Program-made: the position numbers and the translations under genes | Source: Modestobacter marinus | GTDB taxonomy: Bacteria; Actinomycetota; Actinomycetes; Mycobacteriales; Geodermatophilaceae | Direction of reading: 5' to 3' | DNA: 64,000 nucleotides | NCBI RefSeq assembly: GCF_011758655.1 | Contig: NZ_JAAMPA010000001.1 | Coordinates: forward strand, 682,001 to 746,000 | Shown here: piece by piece, positions 3,211 through 60,609 of the stretch | How positions within the stretch are numbered: position 1 is the stretch's first letter | How the letters are laid out: each line of letters starts with the position of its first letter | Notes under the pieces: model-generated | Database searches by the model: none | What the model saw: the letters and a program-made list of their open reading frames with translations, nothing else | Told to the model about the DNA's origin: nothing

Positions 3211-3635
3211 GGCGGCACCTGGTCACCGCCCTGCTGGTGCTGGCCGTGATCGCGCTGTTCGCCACCCCGCTGCTGCTCGACGGGGGCAGCGAGTACGCCG
3301 GCACGGACAGCCAGGCCACCGAGCTGATCGAGGAGTCCGACGCCGGCTACGAGCCGTGGTTCGAGTCGGTCTTCTCCCCCGGCTCGTCGGAGATCGAGTC
3401 CGGCCTGTTCGCGCTGCAGGCGGCGCTCGGCGGCGGGGTGCTGGGCTACGTGCTCGGCCGCCTGAAGGGCCGACGGACGGCGGAGCAGACCAGCCGGCGG
3501 ACGGCGGAGCAGACCAGCCGGCGGACGGCGGAGCAGACCGGCCGGCGGACGGCGGAGCAGACCCGCCGGGAGACGGGCGAGCAGCCGGCCCGGCGGACCG
3601 TGGAGCCGGCACGCACGGAGCCCACGACGCCGTGA
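3207..3635 (+). CDS. cbiN: ECF cobalt transporter auxiliary protein CbiN/PDGLE domain, with repeat tail
   Basis: This 142-residue protein has the CbiN layout: an N-terminal membrane helix (about residues 5-24), an extracytoplasmic segment, and a second helix near residues 67-85 ([18 protein letters not shown]). CbiN helps load metal into CbiM. Family members normally end soon after the second helix. Here a charged tail of four RRTAEQT[SGR] octapeptides plus a decayed copy extends into the cytoplasm, encoded by a 24-bp tandem repeat. The ATG lies in the ATGA overlap with cbiM, and GTGA overlaps cbiQ. Confidence 0.85.
3471..3590 (+). repeat. 24-bp in-frame tandem repeat in cbiN
   Basis: Four near-identical 24-bp units (3471-3494, 3495-3518, 3519-3542, 3543-3566) and one decayed unit (3567-3590) encode [12 protein letters not shown] octapeptides. 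The differences are confined to the last codon of each unit. The unit length keeps the frame, so copy number can change without disrupting cbiN. Confidence 0.95.
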
Positions 3636-4369
3636 CCGGGCTGGCGATCGACGACGCCGCCTGGGCCAGCGCCTGGCGGCTGCGCTCCCCCGCCGACAAG
3701 TTGCTGCTCAGCGGCGGGCTGGTGCTCGCCGCGCTGGTCCTCCCCGCCTGGCCCGGCAGCGTGCTGGTCGGGCTGGCCGCCGTCGTCCTGGCGCTGGGCC
3801 CGGCCCGGGTGCCGGCGCGCACCTTCGGCCGCGCGGTGCGGCTGCCGCTGGCGTTCATCCTCATCGGGGCGCTGACCGCCGTCGTCCAGGTCGGGGACGG
3901 CGGCCTCGGCTGGGCACCGGACGCGGCCGCGCAGGCGGGCGGGCTGGTCGCCCACGCGGTCGCCGGCAGCGCCGCGGTGCTGCTGCTGGCCACGACGACG
4001 CCGATGTCGGACCTGCTGCCGGCGCTGCACCGGCTGCGGGTGCCCGACGCCGTGGTGGAAGTGGCCTCGGTGACCTACCGGATGCTGTTCGTGCTGCTCA
4101 CCAGCCTGTCGACCATCCGCGAGGCGCAGGCCGCCCGGATGGGGCACGCGGGCCTGCGCAACACCTACCGCTCCTCGGGGATGCTGGCCGCCGCCGTGCT
4201 GACCCGCTCCTGGGACCGGGCCCGCCGGCTGTCCGACGGGCTGGCCGGGCGGGGCATGGAGACCGGGCTGCGGGTGCTGCCGGAGGTGCTGCCCTCCTCG
4301 GCGCGGTTCGTGGCGACGACCGTCGTCGGCCTGGCCGCCCTGGTCACCGTGAGCCTGGTGGCGGCATGA
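3632..4369 (+). CDS. cbiQ: ECF cobalt transporter T component CbiQ
   Basis: This 245-residue membrane protein is the transmembrane coupling (T) subunit linking CbiM to the ATPase CbiO. It has about five hydrophobic segments and the cytosolic T-component helices, including the Ala-Arg-Gly type signatures [12 protein letters not shown] and [15 protein letters not shown] that contact the ATPase grooves. Translation starts at GTG in the GTGA overlap with cbiN and ends in an ATGA overlap with cbiO. The position within cbiMNQO leaves little doubt about its role. Confidence 0.93.
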
Positions 4370-5211
4370 GCCACCTGACGCTGGCCGCCGAGGGCCTGGA
4401 CGCGGGGTACGAGCGGGGTGCGCGGGTGCTGGACGGCGCCTCGCTGACCGTGCCGCCCGGCCGCCGGCTCGCACTGCTGGGCGCGAACGGGTCGGGCAAG
4501 ACGACGCTGCTGCGCTGCCTGTCCGGGGCCCTGGCGCCCGCCCGCGGCCGGGTCACCCTGGACGGCGCCGAGCTGCGCCCCACCCGGTCGGGCCTGCGCG
4601 CCCACCGCCAGGCGGTGCAGCTGGTGCTGCAGGACCCCGACGACCAGCTGTTCAGCGCCTCCGTCGCCCAGGACGTCTCCTTCGGTCCGGTGAACCTGGG
4701 GCTGCCCGAGGCCGAGGTCCGTGCCCGGGTCGCCGAGGCGCTGGAGCTGCTCGCCGTGGCGCACCTCGCCGGCCGCCCGACCCACCAGCTCTCCTACGGC
4801 GAGCGGAAGCGGGTCGCCATCGCCGGCGCGGTCGCCATGCGGCCCTGCGTGCTGATGCTCGACGAGCCCACCGCCGGGCTCGACCCCACCGCGGTCGGCG
4901 AGGCGCTGGCCGCGCTCGCCCGGTTGCAGGAGGCCGACTCGACAGTCGTGATGAGCACCCACGACGTCGACCTGGCGCTGCGCTGGGCCGACGAGGTCGC
5001 CGTCGTGGTGGACGGCGGGGTGGTGCAGGGCGCACCGGACGTCGTCCTCGGCGACGACGTGCTGCTGGCCCGGGCCCGGCTGGACCGGCCGTGGGCGCTC
5101 AGCGTCGGCGCCCGGCTGCAGGCGCTCGGGCTGCTGCCCGACGGCGCACTCCCCCGCGACGCCGACGCGCTGCTGGCCGCGCTCCCCGACCGCCCCGGGG
5201 TCACGGCGTGA
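4366..5211 (+). CDS. cbiO: ECF cobalt transporter ATP-binding protein CbiO
   Basis: This 281-residue ABC ATPase powers the cobalt ECF transporter. Visible motifs are Walker [11 protein letters not shown]-loop region [15 protein letters not shown] (the DDQLF sequence is typical of ECF ATPases), signature [13 protein letters not shown], Walker [14 protein letters not shown] and H-loop STHDVDL. A single ATPase gene is present, so it probably acts as a homodimer. It overlaps cbiQ by ATGA and the next gene by GTGA. Confidence 0.95.
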
Positions 5212-6842
5212 TCGTCGTGGGCATCGGGGCACGCGCCGGGGTGACCGCCGACGAGGTGCTGGCCGCCGTGGACGCGGTGCTGCCGGCGCCGGAGGGCCCC
5301 GTCCGGCTGGCCTCGCTGGACAGCCGGGCCGCCGAACCGGGGCTGCGCCAGGCCGCCGCGCGCCGCGGCTGGCCGCTGACCGGGCACCCGGCGGCCACCC
5401 TGGCCGGCGTCCCGGTGCCCACCCCGTCGGCGCGGGTCGCCGCCGCTGTCGGCACGGCGTCGGTCGCCGAGGCGGCGGCGCTGCTGGCGGGTGGGCGGCT
5501 CGTCGTGGCAAAGACGGTGCACGGCCGGGTGACCGTGGCGGTGGCCCTCGACCCCGCCCCGCGGCCCCACGACGCCGACATCTCTCAGCACGACGTGGAC
5601 CTCCGCCACCACGACATCGACCTCCGGCACCACGACACCGACCTCCGGCACCACGACACCGACCTCCGGCACCACGACACCGACCTCCGGCACCACGACA
5701 CCGACCTCCGGCACCACGACACCGACCTCTGGCACCACGACACCGACCTCCGGCACCACGACACCGACCTCCGGCACCACGACATTGACCTCCGGCACCA
5801 CGACATCGACCTCCGGCACCATGGCGACGCCGAGGTCGGACCCGGCCTGGTGGACCTGGTGGTGAACGTCCGTGCCGACGCGCCCCCGGCCTGGCTGCGC
5901 ACCGTGCTGCACGAGGCGGTCGAGGCCAGCGCCGCCTACCCCGACCCGCGCCCGGCCCGGGCAGCGGTCGCCGCCGCGCACCGCCGCGACCCGGCCGAGG
6001 TGCTGCTCACCGCGGGGGCCGCCGAGACGTTCACGCTGGTCGCGCGGGCGCTGCGTCCGCGCCGCGCGGTCGTCGTCCACCCCTCCTTCACCGAGCCCGA
6101 GGCCGCACTGCGCGCTGCCGGCCACCCGGTGGAGCGGCTGCTGCTGCCCGGTCCGGGGTACCGGCTGGACCCGGCGGCGGTGCCGGCCGACGCCGACCTC
6201 GTCGTCGTCGGCAACCCGACGAACCCGACGTCGGTGCTGCACCCCGCCGCCGACCTCGCAGCCCTGGCCCGCCCCGGGCGGGTGCTGCTGGTCGACGAGG
6301 CGTTCGCCGACACGGTGCCCGGTGAGCCGGAGTCGCTGGCCGGCCGCAGCGACCTGCCCGGGCTGCTCGTGGTGCGCAGCCTGACCAAGACCTGGGGGCT
6401 GGCCGGGCTGCGCGTCGGCTACGCGCTCGGCCCCGCCGACCTGGTCGCCGCACTGGCCGCGCAGCAACCGCACTGGCCGGTCTCCACTCCCGCGCTGGCC
6501 GCGCTGTCCGCCTGCACCGGTCCGGCCGCCCGGGCCGAGGCCGAGGAGGTGGCGCACCAGCTCACCGAGCACCGGGCCGCGCTGCTCGCCGCGCTCCCAC
6601 GCACCGTCGAGGTGCTGGCCGAGCCGCGGTCGTCGTTCGTGCTGCTGCGCGTGCCGGGCGGTGCCCGGGTGCGCGAGCGGCTGCGGGAGCGGGGCTGGGC
6701 GGTGCGCCGGGGCGACACGTTCCCCGGCCTGACCGGCGACCACCTGCGGGTGGCCGTACGCGACCCGGGGACCTCCCGTGCGTTCGCTGCGGCGCTGGCT
6801 GAGACCCTTGACCCGATCGACACGACCGAGGAGGTCCGCTGA
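5208..6842 (+). CDS. Fusion: CobE/CbiG C-terminal-like domain, His/Asp repeat linker, CobC-like PLP enzyme
   Basis: This 544-residue protein has three parts. Residues about 1-115 ([38 protein letters not shown]) match CobE / CbiG C-terminal domains of corrin ring modification. Residues about 128-204 are eleven copies of the heptapeptide HD[TIV]DL[RW]H. Residues about 215-540 are a class I/II PLP aminotransferase fold like L-threonine-O-3-phosphate decarboxylase (CobC/CobD), with [20 protein letters not shown] and the PLP-lysine motif [12 protein letters not shown]. The CobC part would supply the aminopropanol side chain. GTG lies in a GTGA overlap with cbiO. The His-rich linker is discussed as a finding; metal binding by it is only a hypothesis. 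Confidence 0.85.
5589..5819 (+). repeat. 21-bp in-frame tandem repeat, 11 copies
   Basis: Eleven contiguous 21-bp units encode HD[TIV]DLRH, with one unit reading HDTDLWH. Most changes fall at two codons (ACC, ATC or GTG in position 3, and CGG, CGC or TGG in position 6), so the array is young or homogenised. It contributes 22 histidines and 22 aspartates to the linker between the CobE-like and CobC-like domains. Confidence 0.97.
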
Positions 6843-7927
6843 GCACCGACCCGACCCCCTTCGCCGGAACGCTGCTGGGCGCGACCATCGCCGCCATCGC
6901 CCCGCGGGACACCGCCGCCGAGCGGGCCGCCCGGGAGCGGCTGGACCGGATGACCAAGCCCCCCGGCTCCCTCGGGGTGCTCGAGGACGTCGCCGCGCAG
7001 CTGGCCGGCACCGCCGGGGCGTGCCCGCCTCCGCTGCCCGAGCCGGCCGTGGTCGCGGTCTTCGCCGGCGACCACGGGGTGCACGCCCAGGGGGTCACCC
7101 CCTGGCCGCAGGAGGTCACCGCCCAGATGGTCGCGAACCTCGCCGGCGGCGGCGCCGTGGTCAACGCCTTCGCCGCCCAGCTGGGCGCCGAGGTGGTCGT
7201 GGTCGACGTCGGGGTGGCCACCCCGGTGGGTCCCGCCGCGGGCCTGCTGGAACGCACCGTCCGCCGCGGCACCGCCGACCTCTCGGTCGGTCCGGCGATG
7301 ACCCTCGCCGAGGCCCGGCAGGCGGTGGAGGTCGGCATCGAGGTGGCGACGACGCTCGCCGCCGGGCACGGCTGCCTGGTCACCGGCGACATGGGGATCG
7401 GCAACACCACCGCGTCGGCGGCCCTGGTCTGCGCGTTCACCGGCGCGGCCCCGGCCGCGGCGACCGGCCGCGGCACCGGCATCGACGACCCCACGCTGGC
7501 CCGCAAGGTCGAGGTGGTCACCCGCGCGGTGGCGCGGGTGCCGGGTCGCCCGGCCACGCCCGAGGCGGCGCTCGCCGCACTGGCCGAGCTCGGCGGGCTG
7601 GAGCACGCCGCGCTGGCCGGCTTCGTGCTCGGCGCCGCGGCCGCCCGGGTGCCGGTGCTGCTGGACGGGGTGATCGCCGGCGCGGCCGCGCTCGTCGCCG
7701 CCGCGCTGTGCCCCGCCGCCCTGGAGCACGCCCTCGCCGGTCACACGTCGGCCGAGCCGGGACACGGCCTGGCCCTGCACGCCCTGGGCCTGCGCCCGCT
7801 GCTCGGGCTGGACCTGCGCCTCGGCGAGGGCACCGGTGCCCTGCTCAGCCTGCCCCTGGTGGCCAGCGCGGCCCGGGCGCTGCGCGACGTCGCCACCTTC
7901 GACTCCGCGGGTGTGACCGAGAAGTGA
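6839..7927 (+). CDS. cobT: Nicotinate-nucleotide--dimethylbenzimidazole phosphoribosyltransferase
   Basis: CobT makes alpha-ribazole phosphate from nicotinate mononucleotide and dimethylbenzimidazole for the lower ligand of B12. Motifs are TKPPGSLG, AGDHGVHAQGVTPWP, TGDMGIGNTTASAA and EPGHGLALHALGLRPLL near the end. No ATG, GTG or TTG exists in frame between the upstream stop and ATG 6950, and that ATG would delete about 37 family-conserved N-terminal residues just before TKPPGSLG. I therefore place the start at CTG 6839, in a CTGA overlap with the previous stop and behind GAGGAGG (6828-6834), giving 362 residues. The overlap mirrors the ATGA/GTGA junctions of the rest of the operon. Confidence 0.9.
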   Translation: MSTDPTPFAGTLLGATIAAIAPRDTAAERAARERLDRMTKPPGSLGVLEDVAAQLAGTAGACPPPLPEPAVVAVFAGDHGVHAQGVTPWPQEVTAQMVANLAGGGAVVNAFAAQLGAEVVVVDVGVATPVGPAAGLLERTVRRGTADLSVGPAMTLAEARQAVEVGIEVATTLAAGHGCLVTGDMGIGNTTASAALVCAFTGAAPAAATGRGTGIDDPTLARKVEVVTRAVARVPGRPATPEAALAALAELGGLEHAALAGFVLGAAAARVPVLLDGVIAGAAALVAAALCPAALEHALAGHTSAEPGHGLALHALGLRPLLGLDLRLGEGTGALLSLPLVASAARALRDVATFDSAGVTEK

Positions 7928-9264
7928 CCGCCTCTCCGAGCCCGGGCACCGTCTACCCGGTGGGGCTGCGCCTGGCCGGGCGCCGCGTCGTCGTCGTCGG
8001 CGGGGGCCAGGTCGCGCACCGCCGGGTCGCCGGCCTGCTGGAGGCCGGCGCTGAGGTCACCGTGGTCAGCCCCGAGGTCACCCCGGCCCTGGAGGCGCTG
8101 GTCGCGCCCGGTTCGGTCACCTGGCACCCGCGGCGCTGGGTCGACGGCGACCTGGCCGGCGCCTGGTACGCCGTGGCCGCCACCGACGACCCGGACGTGA
8201 ACGCGGCCGTCGCCGCCGAGGCCGAGCGCGACCGGGTCTTCTGCGCCCGCGCCGACGACCGCGGCGCCTCCAGCGTCTGGACCCCGGCGGTCGGCCGGCA
8301 GGGCGACCTGGTCATCGGCGTGCACGGCGGCGGCGACCCGCAGCGGGCCGTCGGCGTGCGGGACGCGGTGCTGACCGGGCTGACCGACGGCTCCATCGCC
8401 GACCGCGCCTCCCGCACCCCCTCGGTGGCCGCCGGCAGCGTCGTCCTGGTCGGTGGCGGGCCGGGCGACCCCGGCCTGGTGACGGTCCGCGGCCGGCAGG
8501 CGGTCGCCACGGCCGACGTCGTCGTCGCCGACCACCTCGCCCCGCAGGGGCTGCTGGCCTCGCTGCCCGCCGACGTGCTGGTCATCGACGCCTCGAAGCT
8601 GCCGCGCGGGCGCTCGATGGCGCAGGAGCAGATCAACGAGCTGCTGGTGTCGCACGCGCTGGCCGGTCGCCGGGTGGTGCGGCTCAAGGGCGGCGACCCG
8701 TTCGTCTTCGGCCGTGGCTTCGAGGAGCTCGAGGCGTGCGCCGCGGCGGGCGTCCCGGTCGAGGTCGTGCCCGGGGTGACCAGTGCGATCGCCGTGCCCG
8801 GCCTGGCCGGGGTCCCGGTCACCCACCGCGGGATGACCCACGAGTTCGTCGTCGTCTCCGGGCACGTGCCGCCGGGGCACCCGGCGTCGCTGGTCGACTG
8901 GGCGGCGCTCGGGCGCCTGCGCGGCACGGTCGTGGTGCTGATGGGGGTCGACACCGCCCCGGCGATCTCCGCCGCCCTGGTCGAGCACGGCCGGTCGCCG
9001 GAGACGCCGGTCGCCGTGGTCAGCGACGGCGCCACCCCGGCCCAGCGCACGCTGCGCACCACCCTCGCCGGGCTGGCCCGGACCATCGCCGACGAGGGCG
9101 TCCGACCGCCCGCCGTCTGGGTGGTCGGGGACGTCGTCGGGCTGTCGGCCCCGGCGGTGCCCGCCCAGGAGGTCCCGGGGGTCCCCGCTCAGAACGCATC
9201 GGGGGTGCCCGCTCAGGAGGTCCCGGGGGCGCCCGCTCAGGAGGCCACGGCGCCTCCCGCTTAG
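7924..9264 (+). CDS. Siroheme synthase / uroporphyrinogen-III C-methyltransferase (two-domain)
   Basis: The 446-residue protein joins two domains. Residues about 1-150 form a CysG N-terminal-like precorrin-2 dehydrogenase/ferrochelatase with the NAD-binding RRVVVVGGGQVAHRRVAGLL. Residues about 165-410 form a SAM-dependent uroporphyrinogen-III methyltransferase with VVLVGGGPGDPGLVTVRG, VVRLKGGDPFVFGRG and VPGVTSAIAVPGLAGVPVTHR. It makes precorrin-2, the branch point between cobalamin and siroheme, and probably oxidises and chelates it to siroheme. It ends in an unusual tail of VPAQEVPG-type octapeptides. GTG overlaps the cobT stop (GTGA). It appears to be the last gene of the operon. Confidence 0.92.
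   Translation: MTASPSPGTVYPVGLRLAGRRVVVVGGGQVAHRRVAGLLEAGAEVTVVSPEVTPALEALVAPGSVTWHPRRWVDGDLAGAWYAVAATDDPDVNAAVAAEAERDRVFCARADDRGASSVWTPAVGRQGDLVIGVHGGGDPQRAVGVRDAVLTGLTDGSIADRASRTPSVAAGSVVLVGGGPGDPGLVTVRGRQAVATADVVVADHLAPQGLLASLPADVLVIDASKLPRGRSMAQEQINELLVSHALAGRRVVRLKGGDPFVFGRGFEELEACAAAGVPVEVVPGVTSAIAVPGLAGVPVTHRGMTHEFVVVSGHVPPGHPASLVDWAALGRLRGTVVVLMGVDTAPAISAALVEHGRSPETPVAVVSDGATPAQRTLRTTLAGLARTIADEGVRPPAVWVVGDVVGLSAPAVPAQEVPGVPAQNASGVPAQEVPGAPAQEATAPPA
9157..9252 (+). repeat. 24-bp in-frame tandem repeat in the siroheme synthase tail
   Basis: Three full 24-bp units (9157-9180, 9181-9204, 9205-9228) and a diverged fourth encode V-P-A-Q-x-x-x-G octapeptides at the C terminus, after the conserved methyltransferase domain. 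Like the other two arrays in this operon the unit is a multiple of three. Confidence 0.9.
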
Positions 9265-41126: not shown

Positions 41127-41433
41127 CCGGCGGGACATGGCCGACCCACGCCCGCACGGCAGGTCGTCGGCGGCTCGTGGGCGGGACCTGCAAGCCGTGC
41201 GCCGGTTGCCCCCGTCCGCCGGACGAGACCGCCTCCGGAGGGGTCCGGCGCCGCAGGTCCTCCGCCGAGACGGCCCCGGGCAAGCGGCAGATCCCGATCC
41301 GCGCAGGCCTGCGACTCGCGGCGCGCTCCCGCGCAGCACGTTGGCGCCCACGGCGGGTCCGGACCGCACGGCAGGTCTGGACCGCACGGCAGGTCCGCGG
41401 CGGGCCACTGCAGATTTGAAGGACCCCGGCGGG

Positions 41434-41684
41434 CCCGAAGCCCACGGCAGGGCCGAAGCCCACGGCAGGGCCGAAGCCCACGGCAGGGCCGAAGCCCACG
41501 GCAGGCGAAGCCCACGGCAGGGCCGAAGCCCACGGCAGGGCCGAAGCCCACGGCAGGGCCGAAGCCCACGGCAGGGCCGAAGCCCACGGCAGGGCCGAAG
41601 CCCACGGCAGGGCCGAAGCCCACGGCAGGGCCGAAGCCCACGGCAGGGCCGAAGCCCACGGCAGGGCCGAAGCCCAACGGCAGG
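41434..41684. repeat. 18-bp minisatellite, 14 units
   Basis: Units of 18 bp (GCCGAAGCCCACGGCAGG) are contiguous from 41434 to 41684. Unit 5 (41506-41521) is 16 bp and the last (41666-41684) is 19 bp; the rest are virtually identical. These two length changes disrupt any single reading frame. There are no spacers. Confidence 0.97.
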
Positions 41685-41757
41685 TCCGAATGCCCCCGGC
41701 AGGTCCAAGCGGCAGGTGCGATGCGGCAGGTCCCCTGCGCCACAGGCAGTCCCTGGC

Positions 41758-41804: not shown

Positions 41805-42803
<999 letters not shown>

Positions 42804-58942: not shown

Positions 58943-60609
58943 GGCGGCACCTCCCCAGGGGCAGAGATGGCCATCCCTGCCCTGGGCGACGGACCGTCAC
59001 CGTCCCGATGGACGGCAGAAATGGCCATTTCTGCCCCTTGTTGCTGTTGCTGGGACTGGGCGAGGGCGTTGTCGTTGGGCGGGCCCGGGTCCTGCGCCGG
59101 CGGCTCGACCGGCAGGTCCTCGGTGGTGAACTCGATCCGGGTGACGTCCTGCTCGGGCACCGGCTCGACCGCCGGGCGCGGCGCGCTGAGCACCCAGGTG
59201 TCCTTCGAGCCCCCGCCCTGGCTGGAGTTCACCACCAGCTCCCCCTCGGGCAGCGCCACCCGGGTCAGCCCACCGGGCAGCACCCAGACGTCGGTGCCGT
59301 CGTTGACCGCGAACGGCCGCAGGTCGACGTGCCGCGGGGCGATCCGGCCGTTGATCAGCGTCGGGGACGTCGACAGGCCGATCGGCGCCTGGGCGATCCA
59401 GTCCCGCGGGCTGCTGCGCACCTTCACCGCGAGCTCCTCCAGGGTCCGCTCGTCGGCCCGCGGCCCGATGACGATGCCCTTACCGCCCGAGCCGTCGACC
59501 GGCTTGAGCACCAGCTGGTCGAGCGAGGAGAGCACCCACTCGACGGTGTCGGGCTCGTCGAGCCGGTGGGTCTCGGCGTTGGCGAGCACCGGTTCCTCGC
59601 CCAGGTAGTAGCGGATGAGGTCGGGCACCCAGGTGTAGAGCAGCTTGTCGTCGGCGACGCCGTTGCCCACCGCGTTGGCGATGGTCACCCGGCCGGCGCG
59701 GGCGGCGTTGAGCACCCCGGCGCAGCCGATCACCGAGTCGGAGCGGAAGTGCACCGGGTCGAGGAACTCGTCGTCGATCCGGCGGTAGATGACGTCGACC
59801 CGTTGCTGGCCGTCCGTCGTCCGCATGCTGACCTGCCCGCCGGAGCAGACCAGGTCCCGGCCCTCGACCAGCTCGACGCCCATCTGCCGGGCCAGCAGGG
59901 CGTGCTCGAAGTAGGCGGAGTTGTAGACGCCGGGGGTGAGCAGCACGACCGTGGGGTCGCTGACGCCGGCCGGCGCCGACGCCTTCAGCGCGGCGAGCAG
60001 CCGGCCCGGGTACTCCGCGACCGGCTGGACCCGGTGGTCACCGAACAGCTCCGGCAGCACCGACGTCATCGCCGCCCGGTTGGTGATCACGTAGCTGACG
60101 CCCGACGGCGAGCGGAGGTTGTCCTCCAGCACCCGGAAGTCGCCGGCCTCGTCCCGCACCAGGTCGATGCCGCTGACGTGCACCCGGACGCCGTTGGGTG
60201 GCACCAGCCCGTGCGCGGCCCGGTGGAAGTGCGCGCTGGTGGTGACCACGCTGCGCGGCACGATCCGGTCGGTGAAGACCTCCCCGGCGCCGTAGACGTC
60301 CGCCAGGAATGCCTCCAGCGCCCACACCCGCTGGGCCACCCCGCGCTCGATCACCGACCACTCCTGGTGGCCGATCACCCGGGGGACGATGTCCAGCGGG
60401 AAGGGCTGCTCCTCGCCGGCGTGCGCGAAGGTCACCCCGGCGTCGCGGTAGGTCTGCGAGAGGACGTCGGCCCGGGCGGCCAGCTCCTCCCCCGACATCG
60501 GCTGCAGCGAGCTGAACAGGCCGGTGTAGGGGGTGCGGGGCCGGCCGGGGGCCGCGAACATCTCGTCCCACTGCCGCCCGAGCGGGTAGCCGTCGAAGAG
60601 GTCCGCCAT
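58936..60609 (-). CDS. Circularly permuted ATP-grasp protein (type 2)
   Basis: A 557-residue protein of the circularly permuted ATP-grasp family (formerly DUF404/DUF407). Markers are [60 protein letters not shown] and [20 protein letters not shown] with the ATP-binding Lys and Gly loop. Such enzymes are predicted carboxylate-amine ligases. Its last 40 residues, after a Gln run, are encoded by the palindromic repeat pair (EMAISA and GMAISA), extending the protein beyond the family's usual end. ATG 60609 lies 6 nt after TAGGTT. Confidence 0.92.
58958..59037. repeat. Paired 22-bp palindromes, dispersed family 1, copy 2
   Basis: The palindrome at 59014-59035 is identical to those at 1023 and 1077. 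Its partner at 58960-58981 has three substitutions (GCAGAGATGGCCATCCCTGC). The spacer contains CGGACCGTCAC (58990-59000) exactly as in copy 1. This copy sits inside the 3-prime coding end of the ATP-grasp gene. Confidence 0.85.

Follow-up and report, generated by a model that had tools for sequence, protein, structure and literature searches.

A histidine-rich linker in a CbiG_C-CobC fusion protein of Modestobacter marinus is probably a young coding minisatellite derived from the domain junction

The CbiG_C and CobC domains of a fusion protein encoded by Modestobacter marinus are joined by a linker containing eleven heptapeptides rich in histidine and aspartate. The linker is best explained as an in-frame coding minisatellite of recent origin, which the domain junction itself would have seeded and which would be tolerated because it lies in a segment predicted to be disordered; a probability of about 0.88 is given to this reading. 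The array is ordinary in kind. Four lines of evidence lead to the minisatellite reading: the identity of the repeat unit, its sporadic and repeated occurrence among relatives, the mixed chemistry of the units found in different lineages, and the presence of sister arrays in the same operon. The analysis was performed on a window of 64,000 nucleotides (NCBI RefSeq assembly GCF_011758655.1, contig NZ_JAAMPA010000001.1, positions 682,001 to 746,000 of the forward strand). Coordinates are those of the window unless a locus or a genome is named.

Results

The fusion gene and its domains

The features discussed below are the following.

3469-3606, plus strand: second coding array of the operon, 24-bp units, RRTAEQTS tail of cbiN (TRF)
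4366-5211, plus strand: open frame directly upstream of the fusion, named cbiO (cobalt ECF transporter ATPase) by presumption from family knowledge; 80-96% identical in those relatives where cbiO lies upstream of CbiG_C
5208-5546, plus strand: CbiG_C / CobE-like domain (PF01890, E 3.8e-28, residues 1-112 of P0001)
5550-5825, plus strand: linker between the domain matches, 92 residues with 24 His and 25 Asp, pLDDT below 50
5562-5821, plus strand: 21-bp minisatellite, 12.4 copies (TRF, unit table)
5808-5831, plus strand: native junction copy DLRHHGDA, opening the CobC domain, presumed seed of the repeat; HHGD invariant in the 40 aligned fusions
5826-6842, plus strand: CobC domain, Rv2231c-family PLP enzyme, stop codon included (NF005915; K393 invariant)
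6842-7927, plus strand: open frame of the downstream neighbour, presumably cobT by family knowledge; similar order in many relatives
9150-9261, plus strand: third coding array of the operon, 24-bp units, PAQEVPG tail of cobA/cysG (TRF)

The frame of the fusion (5208-6842, plus strand) starts with a GTG at 5208, which overlaps the TGA of the cbiO frame, and ends with a stop codon at 6842. It encodes 544 residues including the start methionine. The window protein is called P0001 here; its database counterpart, P0002, covers an identical span and differs from it only in the start methionine. A fusion of CobE/CbiG_C to CobC had been proposed in an earlier sequence-only reading and was confirmed by three profile matches. 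Membership of the CbiG_C / CobE family was supported by 98.8 bits against a PF01890 gathering score of 27, Aminotran_1_2 (Pfam) matched residues 225-528, and the NCBIfam equivalog NF005915 for the Rv2231c-family CobC matched residues 200-529 with 491.4 bits, above its cut-off of 360. K393 of the CobC domain, which we take from family knowledge to be the PLP-binding lysine, was found in all 40 rows of the fusion alignment A1. Identity as the threonine-phosphate decarboxylase CobD of TIGR01140 was rejected, since the score of 241 bits fell below the equivalog cut-off of 290.55. The window protein scores above the NF005915 cut-off like the Rv2231c-family CobC proteins and differs from them by its fusion to CbiG_C. 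For Rv2231c of M. tuberculosis, histidinol-phosphate aminotransferase activity is reported (PMC11065945), and the CobC role of the window protein is therefore assigned by pathway context.

Structure of the array

TRF analysis of positions 5562-5821 gave a period of 21, 12.4 copies, 91% matches and a score of 408. Eleven clean heptads of the form HD[TIV]DL[RW]H span 5589-5819, of which one is HDVDLRH, three are HDIDLRH, six are HDTDLRH and one is HDTDLWH; the earlier count of eleven heptapeptides with 22 His and 22 Asp was reproduced for this span. Six of the eleven units are identical in DNA, so the array is not due to chance, and the other five differ from the consensus. Both synonymous and non-synonymous changes between the units are few. 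Each 21-bp unit corresponds to seven codons, and the reading frame is open through the whole array. Head-to-tail copies, a unit within the range of about 10-60 bp and high identity are the features by which a minisatellite is recognised, and all were observed at 5562-5821. No second such array was seen when the genome was searched for the unit with up to three mismatches: ten matches lie in tandem at this locus and six others, each with three mismatches, are dispersed; the reversed pattern, used as a control, gave five matches. The linker is predicted to be disordered, as residues 117-219 of P0001 received AlphaFold2 pLDDT values below 50, although this region has little alignment depth and low values are expected there anyway.

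The native junction as source of the unit

The commonest fused junction in the clade, seen in relatives without an expansion, encodes DVDLRHH-GD. In locus L017 the unexpanded junction reads GAC GTC GAC CTC CGG CAC CAC GGC, which is the unit plus GGC. Residues H203, H204, G205 and D206 are invariant in 40 of 40 fusions of alignment A1. The same motif was observed outside the aligned fusions. Among 81 further CobC-type proteins, which are free-standing or shorter and include a few fragments of fusions, HHG[DE] lies near the N-terminus in 79, is preceded by at most eight residues in 61, and forms part of a [MVL]TDLxHHG[DE] start in 31. The profile match to 3fkd, a solved threonine-phosphate decarboxylase, begins with HGD, which marks HGD as an older motif of the family; the matches to CobD 1lc5 and to 3p1t begin after the HHGD motif. 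At the level of sequence, these comparisons show that the junction takes its H-H-G-D from the native CobC start, and that the heptad is a head-to-tail copy of this start together with the residues just before it.

Linker variation among relatives

Homologues were collected with the whole protein, array included, as the query, and the best 120 of 7994 matches were used, a choice that favours array carriers. Of the resulting 121 proteins, 15 that lacked a match to one of the domains were dropped, leaving 106, and removal of P0002 gave 105 distinct fusions for the tree. A comparison of linker length and histidine content in related species had been proposed in the sequence-only reading, and it showed the His-rich linker to be a minority state. 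Among the 105 distinct fusions (best 120 of 7994 matches) the linker ranges from 7 to 92 residues, the commonest length is 8 residues (46 fusions), and at least eight linker histidines are present in five rows only, so that a His-rich stretch is not conserved among the orthologues. The row nearest to the window in this set, P0005, is 93% identical and has the 8-residue linker DPDLRHHG. Rows that are 88-93% identical to P0001 range from no tandem copies to eleven heptads. Such differences in copy number among close relatives are expected of a minisatellite.

Tandem linkers were found in 12 of the 105 fusions (best 120 of 7994 matches) and are scattered over the tree, from whose construction the linker was excluded. 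The 12 carriers required 11 changes of the tandem state, and also 11 when the starred branches alone were counted. The carriers are not clustered: shuffling gave a mean of 11.6 changes, and 179 of 500 shuffles were as low. The units include HDxDLRH in the window protein, RHGDIDL (8.3 copies) in P0010, DLRHPDI in P0011, an RHHxIDL-like unit in P0006, DLRHQDI in P0003, DPDHH in P0076, ADGDGPGGADGGG in P0060 and DDDA in P0038; those of P0060 and P0038 contain no histidine. The four other linkers with at least eight histidines (P0006, P0010, P0014 and P0076) all stand apart from the window row on the tree. Arrays containing histidine have consequently been gained repeatedly, which counts against the minisatellite reading.

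A survey of the genus, in which the query also contained the array, covered 22 other genomes, and the linker was measured in 19. By the tandem criterion used for the tree, five of these 19 carry a tandem linker (L010, L011, L015, L019 and L021); the other 14 fall short of it, L026 narrowly, with a histidine-free EPADL/EPADV doublet. The genomes without a linker measurement are G002, G008 and G022, and the match table for G008 shows the domains abutting. The CobC domain matches of G008 (G008:C1:626659-628001) come in two pieces in different frames, possibly through a frameshift or a sequencing error.

Conservation within the unit

Departures from DVDLRHH were tallied in 46 internal units of 11 arrays; these arrays were picked by eye because they have the DxDLRHx register, and some share an origin. 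Last units were omitted. Arrays with other units were excluded (P0038, P0060, P0076, L058 and P0029, the last with the linker of L021/L040), as was L011, whose linker duplicates that of P0004. The departures numbered 4 at D1, 36 at V2, 0 at D3, 5 at L4, 1 at R5, 1 at H6 and 21 at H7. The second histidine, H7, is altered in 7 of the 11 arrays, and the non-ligand arginine R5 in one unit of the 46. D3 and H6 are as well kept as R5, an observation that counts against the minisatellite reading, and the comparison of candidate ligands with the other positions gives a mixed picture. The uniformity of the unit may come largely from recent copying.

Fused and split loci

Adjacent CbiG_C and CobC genes are often fused in the clade. 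The 32 loci L039-L070 comprised 10 fused genes, 19 pairs of split frames and 3 unresolved cases, and closely spaced separate frames encode the domains in many loci from Blastococcus, Klenkia and Geodermatophilus. Two of the six patterns of the peptide-pattern scan were derived from the array. In Modestobacter sp. Leaf380 (L058 6335-6453) an unfused CobC frame has a 15-bp array of its own, which encodes DPGHH-type units and occupies the corresponding N-terminal position. It precedes the start chosen for the database protein P0122 (322 residues); judging from an upstream GTG and the HHGD motif, the array is probably translated.

Gene neighbourhood and other arrays

The fusion gene had been described as encoded immediately after a cobalt ECF transporter, and cbiO was indeed found directly upstream. 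Of the 32 loci L039-L070, 22 have cbiO upstream of the CbiG_C-CobC pair, and these include fused and split pairs with long and short junctions. The cobalt-importer neighbourhood is thus independent of the array. The loci L047, L050, L053, L054, L065, L069 and L070 (Geodermatophilaceae-type) had no cbiM match, and the interval from cobB to CbiG_C contained no match to cbiO; in L054 the sole cbiO-like match, of 31%, lies elsewhere. A 77-bp tandem duplication was observed just upstream of the cbiO match of Modestobacter lapidis (L044 5001-5154).

Two further coding arrays of the operon, in the tails of cbiN and cobA/cysG, differ markedly in chemistry from that of the linker and were not shared by the relatives compared. 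The cbiN anchor was found in 9 of 11 loci, and the RRTAEQTS run was absent from all 9; GRRTAEQT occurs once in L039, and L044 has at most one diverged second copy. The cobA anchor was likewise found in 9 of 11 loci, and in none of the 9 did a PAQEVPG repeat follow the same conserved segment. TRF arrays scoring at least 100 numbered 24 in 464 kb of the genome (the 64-kb window contributed 7 and a 400-kb sample 17), and 19 of them have a period divisible by 3. The linker array ranks second of the 24 by strength, which counts against the minisatellite reading. The strongest of the 24 lies at 41349-41710 (36-bp units, 7.9 copies) and is accompanied by another at 41895-42099 (96-bp units, 2.1 copies); the longest open frame across both has 501 codons on the minus strand.

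A perfect 16-bp palindrome, AGAAATGGCCATTTCT, is present in the window at 1026-1041, 1080-1095 and 59017-59032. It was found at 24 places in the genome, against none for the reversed control, and is a dispersed palindromic element. As a speculation, DNA similar to it could also encode the linker sequences RQNGHFGG (P0044) and RSGHFGEE (P0019).

Discussion

A neutral minisatellite expansion was one of two explanations offered in the sequence-only reading, and it is supported by the derivation of the unit from the junction, by the sporadic distribution among relatives and by the sister arrays of the operon. The seed would have been the native D-V-D-L-R-H-H-G-D at the fused CbiG_C-CobC boundary, from which copies would have arisen by replication slippage or unequal recombination. 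A unit of 21 bp would keep the copies in frame, and a disordered linker would tolerate them. The richness in histidine and aspartate would then be inherited from the seed and not selected for metal, and we infer that the array is selectively neutral. The array shares with in-frame coding minisatellites its 21-bp unit, high identity, head-to-tail arrangement, variation in length between close relatives and position in a predicted-disordered linker. It differs in that the unit can be traced to a native junction; the comparison includes one genome of the species.

The other explanation was an in-pathway store or buffer, in which Co2+ brought in by the adjacent ECF transporter would be bound by the His/Asp array and retained for corrin synthesis. 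The 22 His and 22 Asp within 77 residues, the cbiO gene directly upstream and the separate gain of histidine-containing arrays in several lineages speak for it. Against this, the array is absent from most relatives measured, histidine-free arrays arise in the same linker, the second histidine of the unit is not kept (H7 altered in 21 of 46), and short-linker fusions with cbiO upstream exist (L041, L043, L044, L045 and L066). On family knowledge, neither joined domain is the cobalt-inserting enzyme, and the CobN match is about 47 kb upstream of where the window begins. Furthermore, each of the 18 genus genomes searched contains CbiC (PF02570), CobN (PF02514) and CobS (PF02654), three marker families of the cobalamin pathway, regardless of the linker and including those with linkers of 8 to 18 residues. 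The search covered 18 of 23 genus genomes, that of the window included; G002, G011, G015, G019 and G022, all less than 90% complete, were omitted. Close homologues with the marker genes and without a His-rich linker are the majority of those measured, and homologues of this kind, with full cobalamin synthesis, had been named in the sequence-only reading as a refutation. The Co2+ store is unsupported, and the comparative evidence does not favour it. A storage function is considered very improbable. Binding of Ni, Co or Zn by the linker is chemically plausible, as an incidental property and not as the reason for the array. It is just as doubtful that the junction is a mutational hotspot at which slippage repeatedly makes metal-binding linkers, with the eleven-heptad version co-opted as a cobalt buffer.

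Known His-rich proteins differ from the window protein in their distribution. The His-rich regions of HypB, CooJ, Hpn and Hpn-like typify their respective families and are linked to nickel enzymes. They have in common with the linker a high density of histidine with metal-binding side chains, but most orthologues measured lack the stretch seen in the window. CbiX-L resembles the window protein more closely, as both belong to the cobalamin pathway and carry a low-complexity stretch rich in histidine. According to a review (PMC7689651), metal storage has been proposed for the long His-rich C-terminus of CbiX-L, a point in favour of storage in the linker too, but deletion of this region left cobalt insertion unaffected, and it is thus dispensable for that reaction. 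CbiX-L inserts cobalt and its His-rich region is diagnostic of it, whereas the enzymes joined here, on family knowledge, do not insert cobalt and the window array is sporadic. No description of a CbiG_C-CobC linker was found in the open-access literature searched by title or abstract start.

Selection could also have acted on length, a longer flexible linker between the domains being favoured whatever its sequence. The predicted disorder is consistent with such a spacer, as are long linkers of unrelated composition (32 residues in P0039, P0042 and P0054, and 51 in P0019). However, a linker of 8 residues is the commonest, sister rows differ widely, and 19 of the 32 loci L039-L070 encode the domains in split frames; there is little reason to expect that this is the explanation. 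Tandem arrays of 21-bp units over 260 bp may be miscounted in short-read assemblies, and the copy number could be wrong through collapsed or expanded reads. An assembly artefact is nevertheless extremely unlikely, as the frame is intact through all copies, five of the eleven units differ from the consensus, and related arrays are present in other assemblies (G013, G006 and G020).

With the linker read as a young coding minisatellite, a striking and function-like composition beside a cobalt importer can come from the copying of a short native motif. Composition alone is therefore insufficient for calling metal-binding domains, and caution is advised. The linkers of 7 to 92 residues in closely related enzymes form a natural series for testing whether linkers of low complexity matter.
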